A stretch of DNA of 64,000 nucleotides from Branchiostoma floridae (Eukaryota > Chordata > Leptocardii > Amphioxiformes > Branchiostomatidae), in NCBI RefSeq assembly GCF_000003815.2, contig NC_049997.1:11894459-11958458 (forward strand), given 5' to 3'. A program made the position numbers and the translations under genes. The notes below the pieces were generated by a model. It searched no databases. It was not told the origin of the DNA and saw only the letters and a program-made list of their open reading frames with translations. Positions 4,820-64,000 of the stretch are shown here, in pieces (positions within the stretch are counted from its first letter, which is position 1; each line of letters opens with the position of its first letter).

Positions 4820-5168
4820 CAGGGCTCGAAATACCACCTGCATATGCAGGTTATTGCAGGTAAAATTGGAGCTGTACAGGTGTTTCTGGTGTCTACCTGC
4901 ACCTAGCCTGCACTGGTCCATGTACTAGGTTTTATACATAAATGTCTTATGATGCAGGTGTAAATGGATTGTTATCAGCTGCATTGACTGTTACCACCTA
5001 TAAAGAATAAAAGAAAAAATAGCAATGTTTCCTGAACAATTTTAGTATGATCCATACTTTCTAAATTCAGACTGGTGCAAGTAAAATTTGTCTGGTGCAG
5101 GTAATTTTCAATGTTACCTGCACCAGTGCAGGTACCGGGGTATGCAGAAAAAAGCATTTCGAGCCCTG
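4820..5168. mobile_element. Inverted-repeat element with CAGGGCTCGAAAT ends (family D, copy 1)
   Basis: The left end is CAGGGCTCGAAAT and the right end its inverse ATTTCGAGCCCTG. Just inside are dyads built on ACCTGCATATGCAGGT, with many further CCTGCA/TGCAGG repeats. It is paired with the copy at 7507-7833, which has the same ends but a different internal dyad. Non-coding. Confidence 0.65.
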
Positions 5169-5699
5169 ATTCCATTTCTCAGCGCAAGTGACCACAAAGT
5201 ATAGTATTTACAGTACCTATCTCAAAAGCAGATGGCCGTTAAGTCACATTCGCAAAGATTGCAACCATGAATGATCATGGGATAGTAGGTTTAGCCGATA
5301 TGAAAGGAAAATTTATTGTACCATGCTTATCTAGCTATAGCATTATGGGGAGGCCTGCATTTCACTTTTTTTTTCACACACACACATGCCACTTTTTGTA
5401 AGGTGTTGTTATAAGTTATTTTGATTTTCTGTAATCCAAGGGAAAGCATGATCTTATTAACGTAATTTTTGTAGCAAATGTTGCATAACTTCCTTCCTTT
5501 AATTTAGCGTAAAGTATTGTCAGGACCCCCATGCAGACCACCCTTGTCTTGTATTGAACAAGCTTGATGTCTTGGTGAATGGGACGCATTATTTTCCTTT
5601 TTCCTCCTCTGAATCTAAAAATGTCCTCCATAAAATTAAAATTGCAATCCTTCTTGGTCTGTTACTAGGTAATTCAAGAAGCAAATCATACATAATTAC

Positions 5700-5819
5700 T
5701 TGTACAAGTATCTATAGGCAAGGGGCTTTCATTTGATGAAAGTTTCTTGCTGTAGGCATCCAGAAAATCAACTCCATTCCAATTCCTGTTGAGCATAATC
5801 ATATATGGAATCTTGGTGC
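5700..5819 (-). other. Protein-like segment, possible exon or transposase relic
   Basis: Minus-strand 120-nt open segment after a long pyrimidine tract and CCAG acceptor, ending at a GTAATT donor. It encodes TKIPYMIMLNRNWNGVDFLD followed by AYSKKLSSNE. The NRNWNGVDFLD stretch faintly recalls the YNxxMGGVDxxD block of piggyBac transposases, but the match is too short to claim. Adjacent sequence (5416-5640) is also open on both strands. It could be a decayed mobile-element gene or an exon of an unknown gene. Confidence 0.2.
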
Positions 5820-38204: not shown

Positions 38205-39800
38205 CTAAAGGTTTATTGCGTCATTCGAATCAAAGTCAATGGTCACGCGCATGTAGTGGTTAGAGGGCATTGACCTTGCGTCTTGTCCCTGGTCGGACTG
38301 ATCCATTACAGGTTGGGGGTGCAGATATCCCTCACTACTTTTGTTTTCTTGAACAGCAGTTGATGGCTGATCTTTCTGTGCTCGCACATTCTTTTTTTGA
38401 AAAGTTCCAAGAAACTGCTCTTGGCCTTGCTCTTGGCTGTAGTCCCTATCAGGACCGCCCGATGGCGTTTCTGTGGCGTTGATCATTGGAATCATCTCTG
38501 GCATTCGGCTTCCACCTGTCTCGGTGGAATCACCGTTTAAATTTGATCGTCGCCTCTGTCTTTTCCTGCTCTTATTCCTTATACAAAGGAAGAAGAATAT
38601 ACACGTCAAGATCAGCGTAACAACCGAACACCCAACGCCAACAAGAACGACAAGTCCAATGTACTTCGTCTTCATGCAGTTTTTGTCACAGTCATCAGAT
38701 GACACATTTATGAACTTCATCGTTGAGAAGAGCGTTCCTGGCGGAATCTCTGTGAATGACATGGACGTTTGCTCCGATTCAGTGGACGAAACTGAAGTTG
38801 AGACGATGCTGCAGTTGTCTAACATTGGGGTCGAAAACTCTTCAATACTTAGTCCACTGTAGAGTAGAGGGTGTGAACATACTAGGGTGTCCTGAAGACT
38901 GTTTTCTAAACATATCTTCGCATGTAGCAAGTCACAATCGCAGTTCCATGGATTTCCAGAAACATGCATTTCCATAAGGGGAGAAAAGGTCTTGCATGAA
39001 AGTGTTTTGATCATATTTCCGTCCATCCACAGTGAGCGAAGTTCATCCAACTGGTAAAAGCAGTTACTCGGGATGTCGCTGATAGTATTGTAAGATAACT
39101 TCAATGTTTCTGTTTGTACTGGTAAGTCTCTACACGGAACTTCTGTAAAACGGTTGTAAGAAAGGTCCAAATACGAAACCATCAACCCGTCAAAACTATC
39201 ACCCTCCAATGTTGTTAGTTTGTTGTAAGACAGATCAAGATATTTCAGAAGATGTAATCTTAAGAATGCATGTGGCTCGATGTGTTCTAGCTGATTACTA
39301 GCGAGGTTTAGTGAAATCATGCTATCTAGACCTTTAAATGTGTCGTTATTAATGATTGTGAGTTTGTTGTTGTTTAGACGTAGTTGCTTCAACTGGGAAA
39401 TAGTTTCGAAAGCATCTTGTTCAATGTCAATCAGATCATTACCACCCAGAAATAGACTTGTGAGATTCGTCACTCCAACGAAAGTGTTATTTCTTAAAAC
39501 CACTAAGGCGTTGTTCTCAATGTTGAGAAGTTTCAGACTGGAAAGATTTCTTAAAAATCCAAGTGGGATGTCTTGAAGCATGTTACCGCTAAGGTCAAGG
39601 GTGACGGTGACGTCAGGAATACCGTTAATGGCCGTCATGATGTTTTTGAAACTGCAGTCTACTTCGAACTGCATCTCGGGAGTCAGAACACAGGTGCAAA
39701 GTGTGTTGTCACCGCGAAAGCAGGCCGTGTATTGTGCCTCTGTCACGTAAACGTGAAGAAAGCACAGAGCGGTTGCCACCATAACAGAAAAGCTCGACAT
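38205..39800 (-). CDS. Leucine-rich-repeat single-pass membrane protein, intronless CDS
   Basis: 531 aa. Signal peptide at residues 1-22 (ATALCFLHVYVTEA). A cysteine-containing LRR N-cap at about 27-50 is followed by about nine LRRs (64-280), with LDLSGNMLQDIPLGFL, LRLNNNKLTIINNDTF, LNLASNQLEHIEPHAF and LDLSYNKLTTLEG. The LRR C-cap PWNCDCDLLHAKICLEN is at 284-300. A Ser/Thr-rich stalk (331-360) leads to a transmembrane segment at about 381-406, a basic stop-transfer (RNKSRKRQRRR) and a ~120-residue tail with tyrosines in EGYLHPQ and NHYMRV. The type resembles vertebrate LRR adhesion or receptor proteins, but orthology cannot be set. A strong pyrimidine tract and CTAG acceptor 12 nt before the ATG imply a 5' UTR intron. 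The ligand is unknown. Confidence 0.85.
   Translation of the reverse strand: MSSFSVMVATALCFLHVYVTEAQYTACFRGDNTLCTCVLTPEMQFEVDCSFKNIMTAINGIPDVTVTLDLSGNMLQDIPLGFLRNLSSLKLLNIENNALVVLRNNTFVGVTNLTSLFLGGNDLIDIEQDAFETISQLKQLRLNNNKLTIINNDTFKGLDSMISLNLASNQLEHIEPHAFLRLHLLKYLDLSYNKLTTLEGDSFDGLMVSYLDLSYNRFTEVPCRDLPVQTETLKLSYNTISDIPSNCFYQLDELRSLWMDGNMIKTLSCKTFSPLMEMHVSGNPWNCDCDLLHAKICLENSLQDTLVCSHPLLYSGLSIEEFSTPMLDNCSIVSTSVSSTESEQTSMSFTEIPPGTLFSTMKFINVSSDDCDKNCMKTKYIGLVVLVGVGCSVVTLILTCIFFFLCIRNKSRKRQRRRSNLNGDSTETGGSRMPEMIPMINATETPSGGPDRDYSQEQGQEQFLGTFQKKNVRAQKDQPSTAVQENKSSEGYLHPQPVMDQSDQGQDARSMPSNHYMRVTIDFDSNDAINL
38212..38217 (-). terminator. AATAAA overlapping the end of the LRR coding sequence
   Basis: On the minus strand the codons GCA ATA AAC just before the TAG stop contain AATAAA. 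If used, the 3' UTR would be very short. No other close AATAAA was identified nearby. Confidence 0.3.
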
Positions 39801-39812
39801 CTTTGACGGTTG

Positions 39813-42175
39813 CTAGAGTCCAAAAGAAAGAAAAAGAAACAAGGTTAAACAAGTTATAGTGTGGGTGTCAAGAACTAGTTGAATATGGCTCCCGCCCACA
39901 CAAATAGCAAAGTAACTGTAGACCTATTCAAACTCTTTGAACCTCAGAATCTGCATACTGTACCACTTTTCAGTTTTCTAATATTTATATAAAAGATTCT
40001 GTCCGTATCAAAATTCATAACGCTTTCCCCTTCGGGAAATAGTGGTTGTACTTTTGCGATTTTCATTAGTGATCGCATTTTTGGTAACTAACTTACCTTT
40101 GTAAACCTTGTGCACAGAAACGTAATGCCTAAACGATATGGGGAGTAGCACAAAATGAACAGTGGCAAATGAACGATCTGTATGTCATGAAGCTTAAACT
40201 AACCGTGTCACCACACTGTACAGAAGGATACAACCTACCTTTCAGATCTTCAAGTTCCAAGGCTGTGAACACTGAGGAATTTATAAACTTTCTCTCAAGA
40301 GAAATAGCGTAACCTCGTTCGTCACTCAGAGGTAAAATGCGTAAGACCAAGGGTGCGGGATATCTTAGAAGAAGGCGAAAGTCCACTTCCTCAATGACGT
40401 AATGTTGTACAAAGTTCATGTGGCATGACCCTTGAAGAGTCAATATCCTCACCCGTTCGCCGTTTCAAACTTGATACTCCAATTGATTGTCAATTGTTTT
40501 TAATTATTTTCGAATTTCTTTGCGCTTTTTTGTGTGCTAAGCTTTTACAATGGGGTTGGCTCTGATATGTTGTGTCACTGTTTGTGGTTTGTTCAACATA
40601 TAATGACTATAGGTTTTAATGACTTAATAACTATAGGTTTCAATGACTTAATGACTATAGGTTTTAATGACTTAATGATTATAGTTTCAATGACTTAATG
40701 ACTATTGGTTTTATAAGACTTTCTACAAACACCAGTCTAAGATACTTACGTCTATATAGGAAGTATCTATTAGTGACAATGACAATGACAATGACAATGA
40801 CAATGCCAATGACAATGATGTTTATTGCATGTTCATGCCCCAATGGGGCTAAATGCATTAAGTTTGATATAAAGTTAATGACAACAAATAAACAATGATA
40901 TATTCTAATAATAACTATTTTCTACAAGCTTCTTTAGTAAGAACGTTCTCTTGAAGCTCTGGTTTCTACTAGACAAAATACACTTGAAAACGGTTTGTCT
41001 ATAGCTTCACGTAGTTTAACGAGATTACGTCATACAGGCTCAACCCGCACATGTATACACAGTTTTGTACACCTGTTGTTTAACATCATTGACGTTTTCG
41101 AAAACTGTAGGTTAATGTGTTTCTTCTTATTTCTTCACGCCAACGTGTCTTTTCGCGATTTGGATATCAAATTTCGACATCTTCAACCATAACAACGTTT
41201 CTTCTCCTGTCTAATCTTCAAACGAGTTCAACTTTTTCATTTTGGGCCAAATGACCTGACATTTGCCATTGGTACGGAGTGGGCATTAGCTTGTAACATA
41301 TAGTCATCATGTCAAATAGTTTTTATATAGATAGCCCTGTAATATTGCAATTGCCACAGATAGTGCTCGTGTTAGGCTAAACACAGATCATAAACACATA
41401 TCGTCTCCGTATCTTTTGTATTTCCCTGCTTTACGTTGTTTGTACAGCCCAGTACGTAAAAAGATAGTGCGTAAAAAAACTCATTTATCTGTAACAAAAA
41501 CGCACCGTAATCGTTTATGTTGTTTCTATTTCTATGCACTACTGGGCAAAGCCCCTTTTAGGGGCATCCCGCCCAGGTTTACTGTACATTGTTCCAAGGC
41601 TAACCCTTAATGATGGCCTCCGGCTAGTTTGGCTGGTAGTCCTGGCTGTATTTCTTTTTATAAATCAAGCCAAATGAAAGCAAATCAAAACGCCAGGTAA
41701 ATCATTTTCGAACTTGACCTTCCTTTCCACAACAGCTACCCATCTATCAAATATCATGAAGATAAAATCCCGCAGCTTCTTGAGTTATGCTGTTGACATA
41801 CATACAGACCCACACCATAGCCAATACACCATGAACCGATGACATAACCTGCCATAGTGCGTGGGTCAAGGTCGCGTCCAGGGGCATCTAGGGACACCGT
41901 CGAACTGAGCGGGAGGACAACAGTCTAGTTAGCACAATAGAGTATTACAGTATGTAGACTAGGACTGAATGAGTGCGTGTGTGTCGGAGATCCCAGAATG
42001 AAATAGTCTACCCGACTGACTACGCTGGCTATTATTATAGGGAGAATAATTTGGCAGAGTTTTGCTACCAGAGGAGTTGTTCGACCAGAGCTTTAATAGG
42101 GGAAACATGAACCTTGGCGTGGACTGACTCTCCTGGCAAATTTCCCGATTTGGGGCCTGGTGGAGGCTATTAGGA
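39813..42175. other. Intergenic region between LRR gene and tyrosinase
   Basis: It probably holds the 5' UTR intron and leader exon of the LRR gene: minus-strand donors GTAAGTTAG at about 40096 and GTAGGTTG at about 40240. A tandem repeat of ~26 bp (AATGACTATAGGTTT..) occupies about 40602-40711, and a GACAAT run 40780-40820. I see no coding gene. Confidence 0.5.
40602..40711. repeat. Tandem repeat, ~26-bp unit (TTAATGACTATAGGTTT)
   Basis: Five near-identical units of TAATGACTATAGGTTTTAAT / TGACTTAATGACTATAGG, followed shortly by a (GACAAT)n stretch. Confidence 0.7.
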
Positions 42176-45100
42176 ATGAAAGTGCTCGGCTTGCTGATCG
42201 TGTTAGCGGGATGTTTCTGCGGCCGGGACGCACAGTTCCCGCGGGTGTGCACCAGCGATGTCGCCCTGAACAGTAAGGAGTGCTGCCCGGTACCGCCGGG
42301 GTTCACCGAACCGTGCGGCGGAGCTGGTCGGGGACACTGCGCCGACACCCCCGACCCCACCGTGGAAGACCCCGCCTGGAAAAAAGCGTATCACGTGGAT
42401 GACCGGCGCCACTGGCCGACAGTGTTTTTTAACAGAACTTGCTCATGTGAAGGCAACTTCATGGGGTACGACTGCACAAGGTGTATCTGGGGATACCGTG
42501 GGGCCAACTGCGAAACAAAACAACAGCCAGGTGTCCGTAGAAACATCAAGGACATAAGTTCTGAAGAGAAAAACAAGTACCAGTGCTACTTTAACCGCGC
42601 CAAGAATACTCCAAGTGACTTCGTCTTCGCTCTGGAATTTAAAGAAAACATCAGGGGAAGTGAAGACCTCGCCAACATCTCAGTGTATGACTTCTTAGTG
42701 GCGACGCATTACTACGCCAGCCGTGAAACCATGCCGCCCTTCAACACAGGTAACGGAGCATTTCTAAAATGTCGTCCGATTGTTCAAAACGCGTGTCCTT
42801 AAATCGCGGACAGAGTTAAATATTTAACCCGTAAAGAGTCATGTGAGGAAAGATCACTGGTCTTTTACTATGAACAATGCAAGGTCTGTAACCCATACCT
42901 TAACCCAGTTCTTCAGTACAGACTACAGTATATCATCACTCGGCGTTAAACAGACGGAGAACAAGCTGTGAGTCCGACTCAAATGAACGACCATATATAT
43001 ACTATAATAGCATTGTCGTTCGCTTGGTATGCTCACATCATCATGCATGTTAGTGCAGCCCACATCAAAACATAGAAACGGCAAAATTTTCCACGTAAGT
43101 GGCCAAAGTAGTCTACAAATCAAGAACAATTCATAGAATTCTCGATCGTGTAGTTTTGAAAACGGGAATGAAATACGGTGTTTCGATGTGCATATACTTA
43201 CACGTCATTACCTTCGCCAGACGGTTATGTTTGGTGATATTCACAGAGTACTTTAATACTATCACAAGATGTTCATTAAATGTCATACTCCCCAAGCAGA
43301 GATTAGGCTCTGGTTAGTTTTTGGAGACAGGTGCGAGGGGTAGTCAATAAGTTCTCGGCCTCACCCAGAAATATTTGGCACAACCAAGGAGGTTAAAGAA
43401 TCACTTTAACCTCCTTGGCACAACTCAGATTTCGAAGCATAGATGTCAAATATAAAGTCTTGATATGTCATAAAATGAATGTGTGCCAAAAATCAAATTA
43501 TTGTGATCATCACTTTACAGGCCACACCTAGTAACGGTAAGTAAGAGAGAAGGACAGAACCATAGAGCTGCGACCTGAGGTGTGCGGGTCAACTTGCGCA
43601 TGCGCTGCTGAAATGCAGACACCCAATCCTTTCTACTTGAAATAGGAAGGGAATCCTCATCTAATATTTTGACAATGTCTTCAATTTTGACAATGCGCGA
43701 GCAGAAGACATGAGGAAAATGTTCGCGGTGGTTTTTAGTTCGCGGTAAAGCTGCCACCGCGAACATAAAATCACCGCGAAAGTTTCTGTATTTACAAAAA
43801 TACATTTTTTTCATGCGATGTTAACAATACAGTCACGGACATTGCTTTTGTACAAAATACCTGTTACTTTGTTATCCAGGTATCTGTCAGGATGAGGACG
43901 ACTGTACCCTGGACTTCGCGCATGATGGCTCGGGGTTTCTCACCTGGCACCGCGCGTACGTGCTGGAGGTTGAGCGGGCCCTACAGGAGGTCAACGGCGA
44001 CCCGGACTGGACCATGCCGTACTGGGACTGGGGCGCCGCGGAGAAGAACCAGTGCGACATCTGCACCAACGAGTACGTCGGCGCTAACAACAAGCACGGT
44101 GACATAGACACGGGGTCTCTCTTCGCTAGCTGGCGGACGATCTGCGAAGATCTAGACCCGTCCGACAATGCCACCTACATGAACCACACCAGACCGTGCA
44201 ATGTGACCAATGCCAGTGGGAAGCTGAAGAGGAACCCCGGCCACGCGGACACGAGAAGACTCGGGGAGGCAATAACTCACCTGCCGCTAGCGACTGAGGT
44301 AGACTTTGCCCTCAGCTTCCCCGTGTACGACACGCCCCCTTACAGCTCAGCATCGAACTGCAGCTTTCGGAACTTATTGGAAGGGAACGCCGACACCAGT
44401 ACCGGCAAGACTAGGAGAGAAATGTGAGCAGAATGCTCCCCAATTTTTATCGGCATAAAGTTTAAATGGGTACTCCATTTTGTGGGTGGGCGCTTACATC
44501 TGCTCGGAGTTTATAGGCAGAAGACGCAGGCCATGTTATGACTGTTCGTTCTGCGTTCAGCTAGTATATAACTAGTAGTAGTATCCATTATTTTATCATA
44601 CTGCTGCTGGGTTCCCTGACACAGAGTTAGGAACAATCTGTTAGTCTTCACATCGCGCTGCTGCCATGCCTCTGTCCAGCTTATCACCAAGCAGATCCTA
44701 CATACATGGCATAAAATAGTACCAAACTGGTCAAGGAGTGTATTCAGCCCAAAGTTGTCCATTTGCCTTGTTAACATTTTCCCGGTAGCGAAACACACTC
44801 CTAAGCCGGCTTCACTCCTCTGACAGCTTTTGATACTGTGTTATGCTACCGTAGGATCTGCTTCGAGATTACTGTCAAGCTGGTTTATGCAGATATCGCT
44901 CAGCTTTGATTATCCCCCCATGCACAGAATCTCCGCCAACGGCACGGTGCTGGTCCCCGAAGCTATCACCCTGCACGACGAAGTGCATATATACCTGAAC
45001 GGCACGATGTCTAACGTCCCCACCGCACCGAACGACCCCATGTTCTTCCTGCATCACTGTAACGTCGACCGCTTGCTGGAGACGTGGATACGCCGACACG

Positions 45101-47425: not shown

Positions 47426-57240
<9,815 letters not shown>

Positions 57241-57346: not shown

Positions 57347-57347
57347 A

Positions 57348-57608
57348 ACTCTTAAGGCCCCCTCTCACTTTACGTGCGGCACGCTTGCGGCATTGCCGCG
57401 TTCGTTCACTGCGTCACCATTTTGTTAGATTCTTCGATTTTTTATGATTCAGATATTGCGCAATACGTAAAAGTATAACATAAAAGACGACAAAATATAC
57501 AACAAGTAAGAAAATTCGTTCTTTATCTCTGAAATTCGTTGAGCATCTTCCGAACGCAGCAATGCCGCAAGCGTGCCGCACGTCAAGTGAGAGGGGGCCT
57601 TTAGAGTT
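57348..57608. mobile_element. ~260-bp inverted-repeat element beside the gap
   Basis: Arms of ~50 bp: CTTAAGGCCCCCTCTCACTT.. TGCGGCACGCTTGCGGCATT and the complement AATGCCGCAAGCGTGCCGCA.. AGTGAGAGGGGGCCTTTAGA. AACTCT at the left and AGAGTT at the right border are mirrored. Non-coding. Confidence 0.7.
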
Positions 57609-58740: not shown

Positions 58741-60648
58741 CTATACATTTTGCACTAGGTTCATGTCTATAGGGTTAACTCTCCTAGATTTCCTCCAACT
58801 CTTGATGAGATGAAGGATTTTCTTCCATATGGCATGCCAGTGATCTGTGCCTTTAGGTGTATCGTCTGTGGGACACACTGTAACTACATCACTCTTGTCA
58901 GGTGTGCTGGTCGCCTGCACGTCTTCCTCCTTCCGCAAGAGGCCGTCGCTGTAAGGTCCGTTGTTGATCTCAACTGTTTTCTCGACCATCGTTACAAGTT
59001 TCCACAGCTGTGTTCTTCGTAGCGTCTCGTCCTTTGTCTTGTTGTCGAAGAAGACACATCTTGTGCCACATTCCTTGAGCACGTCCAGGAATTCGCGGGG
59101 TGCTGTCTTGAGGTAGTCTTGCTTGTTTCTCACCCTTTCATCCGCGTCTATCACATCCATACCAGTGACTACCATGACTGAACACTGAAGAAATCTCTCA
59201 CCAAAAACGTGTCTCAAAAGATCTACTGCTAAGGCATCCTCCTTTGTGAATCTAGTATGGTTTACTACAAACAATAGTGCATGTAACCCGTTTGGGAACA
59301 TTGTTGCTACCTGAGTAAGAATAGTTGCGGTGTGCTCATCATTGTTTCCAGTGTCTAGTATCCCCGGTGTGTCTACAACAGAGATCTTACGGTCTCCCTT
59401 GTCTCTTGTGAAAAACAAGCAGTGTTTCGTTTCTGACGATAGGCCGCATGACACTGCAGAGGCAGCGTATCCGAGGATGCTGTTTGCTGTACTGCTTTTG
59501 CCAGCTCCGGTTTTCCCTATCAGGGCAATTCTAAGCTCCACACCTAGCGGAATGTGACATCTTGGGGACAGGTCGTTGTGCGTGTACGTTGAACCGTTTT
59601 TCTCGGTCAGTTTCAAAGACACGTCGATCAGTTTAGATGTTTGACGCAGTGCAGTTTCTTGGTCATATGCGTTGCTCATTAACAGAACTCGGCCCTGACT
59701 ATGCTGTGCGATTTCTTTCATGCACTCTGGCAGCTCTTCTAAAATTTCAGACTTTGACATCGTGACATCGTCTGCACCTGTTATCACTATGACAAGGCGA
59801 CTGAGGAAGCCATTGCCAAGCAAGCGATGCAGGGACTTGAACACACTACACTCTCTTTCTTCGTTGTCATACGATTTTATGTAAGACCAAGTCAAGATTA
59901 TGGCATCCAGACCGTGGAGAGAAAATTCGACGCCATTTACAACTTCGTGAAACTCCGTTTCTGTCATCTCCTTCGATATCCCCGGTGTGTCTATGACTGT
60001 CATTTCCCAGAAACCGTCCCCGATTCGGCGATGAAGACACTTCCCTTTGGCTGTCTTGGTGCCTTCTCTAGGGTTTCGTCTGACACGGAATGCTCCTTTA
60101 TGTCCAATGAGAACGTTTGACAGCTCACTTTTCCCATTTCCTGAGCAACCAACGACTAGCAAGCTGACTGGCTGAGGGGTGACTGTAGCATCTTCCAGTA
60201 AGTGACATGCTTCAAAACGGCTTTGTAAAGTTTTAGAAAGTTGCGATGTAGAAGCAGATGTGTTTGACGGGGTGCTTCTAAAAGTCGCGGCCTCTGAAAG
60301 CGGCCATGTGTTTGATTTAGTTTGGTTGGATGACTGCCCTGCACCATCCACTTCTGCTTCGCTGTTTGCCAAACCTTCCTCCAGCGCCGAATCAATCTCT
60401 TCTGCCAGAGAAGAATTCGCCCTTCTCAGAGCTCTATGGAATGACTTCATGGCTGTTGTTCCGCGTGTTAGGATATAATCTAGAAAGTCTGTTGCCGGTT
60501 CATGATGGGTGCTTTGTGATGGGATCCTTGGGTACTCGGCAGTGTCAATGAAATCCTTTTCAACTAATTGTTCAAGTACCCTGTTTATTGAGGACTTCCT
60601 TGGGTTTTTTTTTAGCACTGTTCTCCTTGAATTTAGGGCTTTTGACAT
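58741..60648 (-). CDS. CARD-AIG1-AIG1 GTPase (GIMAP family fusion)
   Basis: 635 aa in one uninterrupted frame. Residues ~15-92 form a CARD-like six-helix domain: VLEQLVEKDFIDTAEY, then FLDYILTRGTTAMKSFHRAL, matching the LD.L..RG..A...F...L pattern of CARDs. After a Ser-rich linker come two AIG1/GIMAP GTPase domains. Domain 1 (162-350): P-loop GCSGNGKS (167-174), DTPG (220), TGADD (290). Domain 2 (371-570): P-loop GKTGAGKSST, DTPG (426), TGMD (495). Domain 1 is the more diverged. The tail is basic (KSWRKSRRVN). GIMAPs are membrane-associated immune GTPases, and CARDs recruit signalling partners. A CTACAG acceptor 16 nt before the ATG suggests a 5' UTR intron. The gene is tandem with a paralogue to the right. 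Confidence 0.88.
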   Translation of the reverse strand: MSKALNSRRTVLKKNPRKSSINRVLEQLVEKDFIDTAEYPRIPSQSTHHEPATDFLDYILTRGTTAMKSFHRALRRANSSLAEEIDSALEEGLANSEAEVDGAGQSSNQTKSNTWPLSEAATFRSTPSNTSASTSQLSKTLQSRFEACHLLEDATVTPQPVSLLVVGCSGNGKSELSNVLIGHKGAFRVRRNPREGTKTAKGKCLHRRIGDGFWEMTVIDTPGISKEMTETEFHEVVNGVEFSLHGLDAIILTWSYIKSYDNEERECSVFKSLHRLLGNGFLSRLVIVITGADDVTMSKSEILEELPECMKEIAQHSQGRVLLMSNAYDQETALRQTSKLIDVSLKLTEKNGSTYTHNDLSPRCHIPLGVELRIALIGKTGAGKSSTANSILGYAASAVSCGLSSETKHCLFFTRDKGDRKISVVDTPGILDTGNNDEHTATILTQVATMFPNGLHALLFVVNHTRFTKEDALAVDLLRHVFGERFLQCSVMVVTGMDVIDADERVRNKQDYLKTAPREFLDVLKECGTRCVFFDNKTKDETLRRTQLWKLVTMVEKTVEINNGPYSDGLLRKEEDVQATSTPDKSDVVTVCPTDDTPKGTDHWHAIWKKILHLIKSWRKSRRVNPIDMNLVQNV

Positions 60649-62502: not shown

Positions 62503-64000
62503 TCAGCTGACAGGAACCACCGAGTTTCTCTTTCTACGCTTCCTAAGCTTCCTACGAATTGTTCGCCACAACTTTGTCAATCTTAGGTTTGACAATGCAG
62601 CAATATGCCTAACCCTCTCCTCTGTAATGTCAGTGACATTGTGTCCATGAACTGTTTCTTCAGATTGTCTGACGGACAGAGACGAAGCACTGGCTCCAAC
62701 GCACGGATCATCTAGTGACTCCTGACTTTGCATTATGTCCGAATCATGCGACTGGTTTTCAACCAGACTGACAGTTGTTTGGTTTCTTACAGACGCCAAA
62801 TGTTCAGCGAATGTTTCGTCAACATATTCAGTTGCAGCTCCCGGTAAACCCCCTTCTTCAGAGAGACTCTCATTGTGGAATGACATTGAAGAGATACTTC
62901 TGACTCGAAGTCCTGGGAAGGACCTGGCTCTGGTAGAGAGTGGTGGGGGTTGCTTCGGTCGAGTTTGTTGCAATGGAGAGAGGGAACCTGGCGGTAAGAT
63001 AATCACTTCGAGGTCTTCTGAGTGAGACCTCTCACCTGCGAAGTGGAATGACGTTAAGCTGTTACTAGTGACTGGCAGTTTGGAGGTGGACTTGGCTTTA
63101 GTGGACAGCTTTGAACGTGCTTCAATGTTTCCTGCCACAGCCTTTCCTTCCCTGAAGTGGTCATCAATGTAGGGCCCTTCGTTCTTTTCAACAAGACCAT
63201 CGATCATTCTGATGAGCTTTGCAAGCTGCATCCGTTGGATAGTCTCATCTCGGGTTTTGTTGTTGAAGAAAACAACTCTATGTTTGCAGAGTTTCAGCAC
63301 CTCCTGTAGGCCCGGTGGAGCATTACGAAGATAGGTTTTAACATCGCCCCTCATCTTAATGTCTGCATCTATATCATCTTTACCCGTGATGACAATGATA
63401 GTATATTCATGCAACAGCCTGTCTCCGAAGACTGCCCTTAGGCACTGAACAGCGTCCTTGTCTTCTTGTGTGAACCTCTGTCTTCCGCTGATCACGAGTA
63501 ACATTGAATGAAGTCCCTCGATGTGATATGTCGCAGCTATCCTGGATAGCTGATCTACAAGTCTATCTTTGTCACCGACTCCCGTGTCGGTATGCATGAC
63601 GCCGGGTGAATCCAATACTGCCACTTTACGTGGTTGCTCCCTTCTGTGGTAAGGACAATCAGGCGTTTCGGAAGCAGCTGAGCAGGAGAAGGTGAATTTC
63701 TCACAGCCTATGATACTGTTACCTGTACTGCTCTTACCAACACCAGTTTTCCCCATCAGTGCCAGTCGGAGCTCGCCTCCCTCAGGAATGATGCAGTTGG
63801 GGGACAAATCTAACACACTGTGCCTGTGCCTATTCCCCTTAGACAGACTGTAGGCGATATTGCAAAGTTCCTCTCTACTCTGTTGTACGCCCTCCAAAGG
63901 ATCGTTTTCAAAAGTTACTAATCTACCTGAACACTTTTCTTCTATTTCCCTTAGTGGTTCCGGCAAGTCTTCAATGTAGTCTTCCACTGATACAAGACGG
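62503..64000 (-). CDS. AIG1/GIMAP-type GTPase, 5' part beyond window (partial)
   Basis: The frame is open to the right edge; the first ~70 residues (RLVSVEDYIEDLPEP.. LVTFEND.. NCIIPEGGELRL) align with the end of AIG1 domain 1 of the left neighbour, so a first GTPase domain, and perhaps a CARD, should lie outside. The full AIG1 domain has GKTGVGKSSTGNS, DSPG in place of DTPG, and TGKDD. A ~200-residue low-complexity tail ends in a very basic stretch (RTIRRKLRKRRKR) before the stop. It is a tandem paralogue of the 58741-60648 gene. The missing start prevents a length estimate. Confidence 0.85.
   Translation of the reverse strand, partial: RLVSVEDYIEDLPEPLREIEEKCSGRLVTFENDPLEGVQQSREELCNIAYSLSKGNRHRHSVLDLSPNCIIPEGGELRLALMGKTGVGKSSTGNSIIGCEKFTFSCSAASETPDCPYHRREQPRKVAVLDSPGVMHTDTGVGDKDRLVDQLSRIAATYHIEGLHSMLLVISGRQRFTQEDKDAVQCLRAVFGDRLLHEYTIIVITGKDDIDADIKMRGDVKTYLRNAPPGLQEVLKLCKHRVVFFNNKTRDETIQRMQLAKLIRMIDGLVEKNEGPYIDDHFREGKAVAGNIEARSKLSTKAKSTSKLPVTSNSLTSFHFAGERSHSEDLEVIILPPGSLSPLQQTRPKQPPPLSTRARSFPGLRVRSISSMSFHNESLSEEGGLPGAATEYVDETFAEHLASVRNQTTVSLVENQSHDSDIMQSQESLDDPCVGASASSLSVRQSEETVHGHNVTDITEERVRHIAALSNLRLTKLWRTIRRKLRKRRKRNSVVPVS

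Follow-up and report, generated by a model that had tools for sequence, protein, structure and literature searches.

A lancelet GIMAP (AIG1-family) protein bearing a CARD at its N-terminus: gene architecture, family history and a candidate nucleotide-dependent mode of CARD clustering

The stretch of DNA analysed here (the window) comprises 64,000 nucleotides of the Branchiostoma floridae genome and lies on contig C19 of the searched assembly (513 Mb, 431 contigs). A frame of 635 codons runs along its minus strand from an ATG at position 60648 to a stop codon ending at 58741, and within it a CARD and two AIG1 GTPase domains can be read in this order without any intron between the domains (Table 1). 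The preliminary description had placed these three domains in a single frame; its coordinates prove exact on translation, the strand, which it had omitted, is minus, and the domain content is borne out by Pfam and by the same layout in two paralogues. The other five frames across the interval contain 16-46 stops each, and shuffling the bases 500 times (three frames each) produced no open run longer than 213 codons, as against 635 here. Directly upstream of the frame lies a splice acceptor-like TTTTTCTTAAG, and the ATG at 60648 is best regarded as the predicted start of the fusion gene. Such an acceptor-like sequence before the start codon is what might be expected if the single frame were an artefact and the CARD belonged to a separate gene or transcript; the passage from CARD to AIG1 needs no intron, however, and the layout is repeated in one frame in two paralogues, so that a mis-joined gene is ruled out and the chimeric reading is improbable in the extreme. 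The existence of the gene, with the architecture described, is held with near certainty.

Table 1. Features of the CARD-AIG1-AIG1 gene and its tandem neighbour, in window positions
Feature	Position	Strand	Basis or remark
CARD-AIG1-AIG1 coding frame	58741..60648	-	635 aa; translation, ORF list, openness control
CARD, residues 10-85	60394..60621	-	PF00619; leave-one-out profile; four-sequence profile against PDB
Linker between CARD and first AIG1, residues ~86-158	60175..60393	-	Ser/Thr-rich (by eye)
First AIG1 domain; P-loop GCSGNGKSEL, G3 DTPG, G4 TGAD	59569..60165	-	PF04548, 85.8 bits
Second AIG1 domain; P-loop GKTGAGKSST, G3 DTPG, G4 TGMD	58915..59535	-	PF04548, 161.3 bits
C-terminal tail: basic, Trp-containing, possibly amphipathic stretch	58744..58914	-	Translation, hydrophobic moment
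Possible polyadenylation signal AATAAA, ~220 nt past the stop codon	58519..58524	-	Pattern scan
Tandem paralogue, 906-codon frame running out of the window	62503..64000	-	ORF list, Pfam

Several other features were noted in the window. A short inverted-repeat element at 57347-57608, with 58-nt arms that are 95% complementary and 146 nt between them, adjoins a 100-base assembly gap. Of 2429 candidates 40 were scored, and 39 of these are further near-full copies (95-98% identity), so that the element represents a young MITE-like family. On the minus strand, an open frame of 486 residues at 53251-54711 is Ser/Thr-rich and mucin-like and matches nothing in Pfam at E<=1; a single-frame protein on this strand, at 38205-39812, resembles, by eye, a leucine-rich-repeat membrane receptor. 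Exons at 42128-44427 on the plus strand resemble those of a tyrosinase-type copper protein, again by eye.

The N-terminal domain was recognised as a CARD by several profile comparisons. Residues 1-108 matched PF00619 over residues 10-85 at 36.3 bits (E=5.9e-9; cut-off 23.9), and the same family scored 32.1 bits in the whole protein, also above the cut-off. The preliminary description had based the CARD on a signature, FLDYILTRGTTAMKSFHRAL, which corresponds to residues 55-74, and had proposed that the assignment be checked against death-fold profiles; the assignment stands, since the CARD family is found above its cut-off, and the Pfam search of the protein gave no Death, DED or PYD match at E<=1, a threshold at which HMMER filters discard most matches above 0.1. 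No Pfam match of its own was found for the linker that follows. Scored against a profile of the other three AIG1-linked CARDs from lancelets, described below, the window CARD reached 42.2 bits, compared with 7.8 for the highest of 500 shuffles; in the corresponding leave-one-out comparisons the other three scored 50.8, 71.7 and 92.1 bits, the window CARD thus being the lowest of the four. The same profile gave 35.9-51.6 bits for eight ordinary lancelet CARDs, six of which outscored the window CARD (43.4-51.6 bits), and 20.6 bits for the CARD of a further locus, L026. Because ordinary CARDs score as high, the profile recognises CARDs generally, and the idea of a private AIG1-linked CARD type finds no support in this comparison. 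Pairwise identity among the four AIG1-linked CARDs is 23-41%, with ten invariant columns common to them.

A profile of all four sequences matched 74 PDB sequences at E<=1, and the leading matches among the best 60 of these 74 were cIAP1 (9e-8), ICEBERG (6.1e-7) and ASC (1.2e-6), followed by a designed protein (1.7e-6), RAIDD (3e-6), CED-3 (1e-5) and Apaf-1 (1e-4). Queries with the window CARD alone in phmmer detected 7 PDB sequences at E<=1, the best of them a designed protein at 0.15, and PDB CARDs were matched weakly (E 0.33-0.99). Such weak matches, together with the lowest leave-one-out score of the four, below six of the eight ordinary CARDs, would suit a CARD that has diverged into a little-used relic, or that is a self-association tag on a protein whose AIG1 job is unrelated. 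The domain nevertheless passes the Pfam cut-off, retains the shared core and sits in an open frame, and we consider it unlikely to be a relic of this kind. AlphaFold runs on single window sequences produced two CARD models of low confidence (pLDDT 59.8 and 60.9). The trimmed model, with a pLDDT of 60.9, has six helices, and by title 12 of its 16 Foldseek matches were CARD or ASC, all at E>=2 and with an rmsd of at least 7.0; no Foldseek match at E<=0.001 was found with the CARD model. In view of their low confidence, the models count neither for nor against the CARD assignment.

The AIG1 family (PF04548) is detected twice in the protein, at 241 bits together and with a per-domain cut-off of 27. 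The best PDB sequence match of the second domain is human GIMAP7 (1.5e-29), and human GIMAP4 (1.3e-26), GIMAP1, GIMAP5 and GIMAP2 (about 3e-18) are matched as well. The conserved box of the AIG1 domain, which we take to be a mark of the GIMAP family, reads GLHALLFVVN in the second domain and GLDAIILTWS in the first. Both sets of G motifs had been reported as present: this holds for the G1 P-loop and the G3 motif, which are kept in both domains, but not for the whole of G4, where a table of the motifs shows the Asp kept and the Lys absent in both domains (Met standing for Lys in the second). In the aligned human GIMAPs the G4 Lys is kept in 4/4 and is followed by Asp or Glu. Among the tandem-AIG1 genes, the first domains lack the Lys in 10/10 and also the Asp in 9/10, the second domains keep the Lys in 9/11 and the Asp in 11/11, and all three single-domain AIG1 rows lack the Lys and keep the Asp.

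On account of this loss of Lys and Asp across the family, the first AIG1 domain looks specialised and is perhaps a pseudo-GTPase, as judged from its motifs. For the window protein, in which neither domain has the G4 Lys, guanine binding may be weak, and the simplest two-GTPase version of any mechanism is weakened. One arrangement that would accommodate these features is a septin-like pair within a single chain, in which a pseudo-GTPase first domain regulates an active second domain and so times the clustering of the CARD; we offer this as a speculative and rather improbable proposal. If the pseudo-GTPase reading were true, it would represent a third nucleotide gate for CARD signalling, besides the STAND ATPases of the Apaf-1/NLR type and the CARD-only adaptors.

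A six-frame search of the genome detected 30 AIG1 matches. The CARD+AIG1+AIG1 arrangement in one frame was found in at least three genes, namely the window gene, its tandem neighbour and one gene on contig C9. Of this neighbour, which lies upstream of the window gene, the part inside the window comprises the tail, the second AIG1 domain (63148-63768) and, from 63832, the end of the first; the neighbour's CARD is encoded beyond the window in the same 906-codon frame. At C4:21.03 Mb, a frame containing three stretches of AIG1 is preceded on the same strand, at a distance of ~3.7 kb, by a CARD, and a 685-base run of N separates the two. We infer that these belong to one gene, the fourth of the CARD genes.

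A tree was constructed from 24 AIG1 domains of 14 frames; left out were the partial third AIG1 at C4:21.03 Mb, the C4:5414 first domain (whose P-loop missed the pattern), a Hint gene on C18 and the fragments found at C19:15.25 Mb and on C236, and a spurious third pattern match in the frame C9a was excluded beforehand. The tandem genes give a clade of 10 first domains (100/99) and a separate clade of 11 second domains (98/98). Inside the second-domain clade, a subclade supported at 98/96 unites the window gene, its neighbour, C4_21M, C9b and C9a, and a CARD lies in the same frame in 3/5 of these genes and upstream in C4_21M; in the fifth member, C9a, an assembly gap of 388 bases lies 45 bases ahead of the frame. 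In the tree of first domains, the window gene and its neighbour do not group with the CARD genes of C4 and C9, and this fork is without resolution. A separate CARD tree compared the four AIG1-linked CARDs with 8 of 150 listed genomic CARDs and the one from L026, and these nine group together at a weak support of 0.865.

Six tandem-AIG1 genes form a cluster at C4:5.38-5.46 Mb, and no CARD was found there by Pfam in the frames at E<=0.1, by the four-sequence CARD profile in the stretches examined, or in the genome-wide CARD list, for which 150 of 187 candidates were scored. The simplest reading is that the tandem AIG1 arrangement came first and a CARD was then gained once, the alternative being its loss in the C4 cluster. 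As the CARD tree is weak, the case for a single gain is drawn mainly from the second-domain tree.

Other AIG1-bearing loci in the genome show further combinations. AIG1 and Hint domains share one frame at L011:3267-5177 (minus strand, C397), and a Hint frame adjoins an AIG1 match at L013:2298-3275 (minus strand, C18); the four-sequence CARD profile gave nothing convincing in either stretch, the best score being 9.5 bits (E 0.33) in L013. At L026:2258-3197 and 4923-5770 (C236), a CARD frame comes first, and a frame that is TIR-like by eye and AIG1-like pieces come after it on the same strand; this may be a CARD-TIR gene that either neighbours a partial AIG1 gene or is joined to it. A tandem-AIG1 paralogue at L016:49-1896 (minus strand) ends in a long hydrophobic stretch that by eye resembles a tail anchor and calls to mind the membrane tails which passages of a GIMAP review describe for GIMAP1, 3 and 5.

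The gene thus encodes a lancelet GIMAP, of the AIG1 family, that carries a CARD at its N-terminus, and as to what such a protein might do, we favour, tentatively and at somewhat less than even chances for the mechanism as a whole, a nucleotide-dependent platform for CARD clustering. The tandem AIG1 part would serve as a nucleotide-dependent assembly module that collects several copies of the protein, placed at a membrane perhaps through the basic C-terminal tail. The assembled AIG1 parts would bring the CARDs together and so nucleate CARD assemblies, and the clustered CARDs could then recruit a CARD-bearing effector, for example a CARD-caspase. Nucleotide gating, membrane binding, CARD clustering and effector recruitment are all inferred steps. 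The idea of nucleotide-gated CARD recruitment fits the domain anatomy and, by analogy, the GIMAP biochemistry in passages of the review, according to which GIMAP2 dimers are induced by GTP binding, GIMAPs bound to membranes may build scaffolds and the GTPase activity of GIMAP7 is stimulated by GIMAP7 itself. The tail has a hydrophobic moment of 0.56, a value reached by 8.3% of shuffles, and among 14 proteins only C4_21M (2.5%) falls below 5%, so that an amphipathic membrane anchor is only suggestive from the sequence. On the side of the effectors, at least six CARD matches (entries picked by eye) have a caspase match within 6 kb downstream on their own strand, and these CARD-caspase loci are possible partners.

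The main rival to the clustering platform holds that the protein acts as a brake: the CARD would cap or sequester other CARD proteins while the GIMAP part tethers it at a membrane, the outcome being a pro-survival protein. It draws on the fact that the top matches of the four-sequence profile among the best 60 of 74 are the cIAP1 CARD and ICEBERG, the latter named there as a protease inhibitor. CARD likeness does not identify partners, however, and ASC, RAIDD, CED-3 and Apaf-1 are matched as well; we judge a braking role unlikely, though deserving of serious attention. According to passages of the review, GIMAPs affect the survival of mammalian lymphocytes, and their connection to the death machinery is unclear. 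With a chordate protein that carries a CARD covalently joined to GIMAP domains, a link of this kind can be tested directly.

Among known systems, the CARD-STAND proteins Apaf-1, NOD1 and NLRC4 carry a CARD beside a nucleotide-binding module, and their CARDs match the four-sequence profile. This equal order of modules, CARD and then nucleotide-binding domain, is what recommends the reading of the window protein as an NLR-like STAND receptor whose GTPases sense a ligand in NACHT's place. The window protein has AIG1 GTPases where STAND proteins have NACHT or NB-ARC, however, and no NACHT, NB-ARC or LRR was found in the whole protein by Pfam at E<=1. Membership of the NLRs is therefore ruled out and an NLR-like receptor is highly improbable; the protein may work like an NLR, by analogy, yet it is not one. 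Human GIMAP7, GIMAP4 and GIMAP2 are homologous to the second AIG1 domain of the window protein, and GIMAP7 and GIMAP4 keep the G4 Lys, unlike the window domains. None of these three human proteins is known to have a CARD. GIMAP8 has, according to an abstract, three potential GTP-binding domains.

Further afield, the available passages of PMC2362128 describe a fungal protein that is AIG1-like and carries a Hog/Hint domain, and those of PMC8195603 septin/GIMAP-like GTPase switches in bacterial systems, and an animal CARD-AIG1 protein is not described in these passages or in those of PMC3723955. The coupling of CARD and AIG1 is already published, as parts of two papers make clear, in lancelets (PMC12373286, PLoS Genet 2025) and, in a related form, in a snail (PMC7053062, 2020). 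In the latter, as excerpted, the AIG gene Bg8770 of Biomphalaria glabrata encodes DD-CARD, AIG1 and a coiled coil; like the window gene, it combines AIG1 with a CARD-type death domain in a single predicted protein, but it is a mollusc gene with AIG1 and a coiled coil in contrast to tandem AIG1. In the consulted sections of PMC12373286, the lancelet AIG1 architectures that recur most often involve an N-terminal CARD, one of two AIG1 clusters consists of the last domain of two- or three-AIG1 proteins, and these most frequently recurring architectures are called unique among animals, a claim with which the earlier snail CARD-AIG1 protein, as far as these excerpts go, sits badly.

The text of the AIG1 section of PMC12373286 names neither the window gene nor CARD members that lack Hint. 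The window gene resembles the CARD+AIG1(+HINT) proteins of that account in its N-terminal CARD and tandem AIG1, and differs in that it has no C-terminal Hint. No Hint was found in the window protein by Pfam, and 0/9 genomic Hint matches lie near the gene, which is accordingly not placed in the Hint-bearing form. Compared with these published systems, what is new here is not the fusion itself but the family history, in which the CARD genes fall in one tandem-AIG1 clade, together with the apparently specialised first domain.
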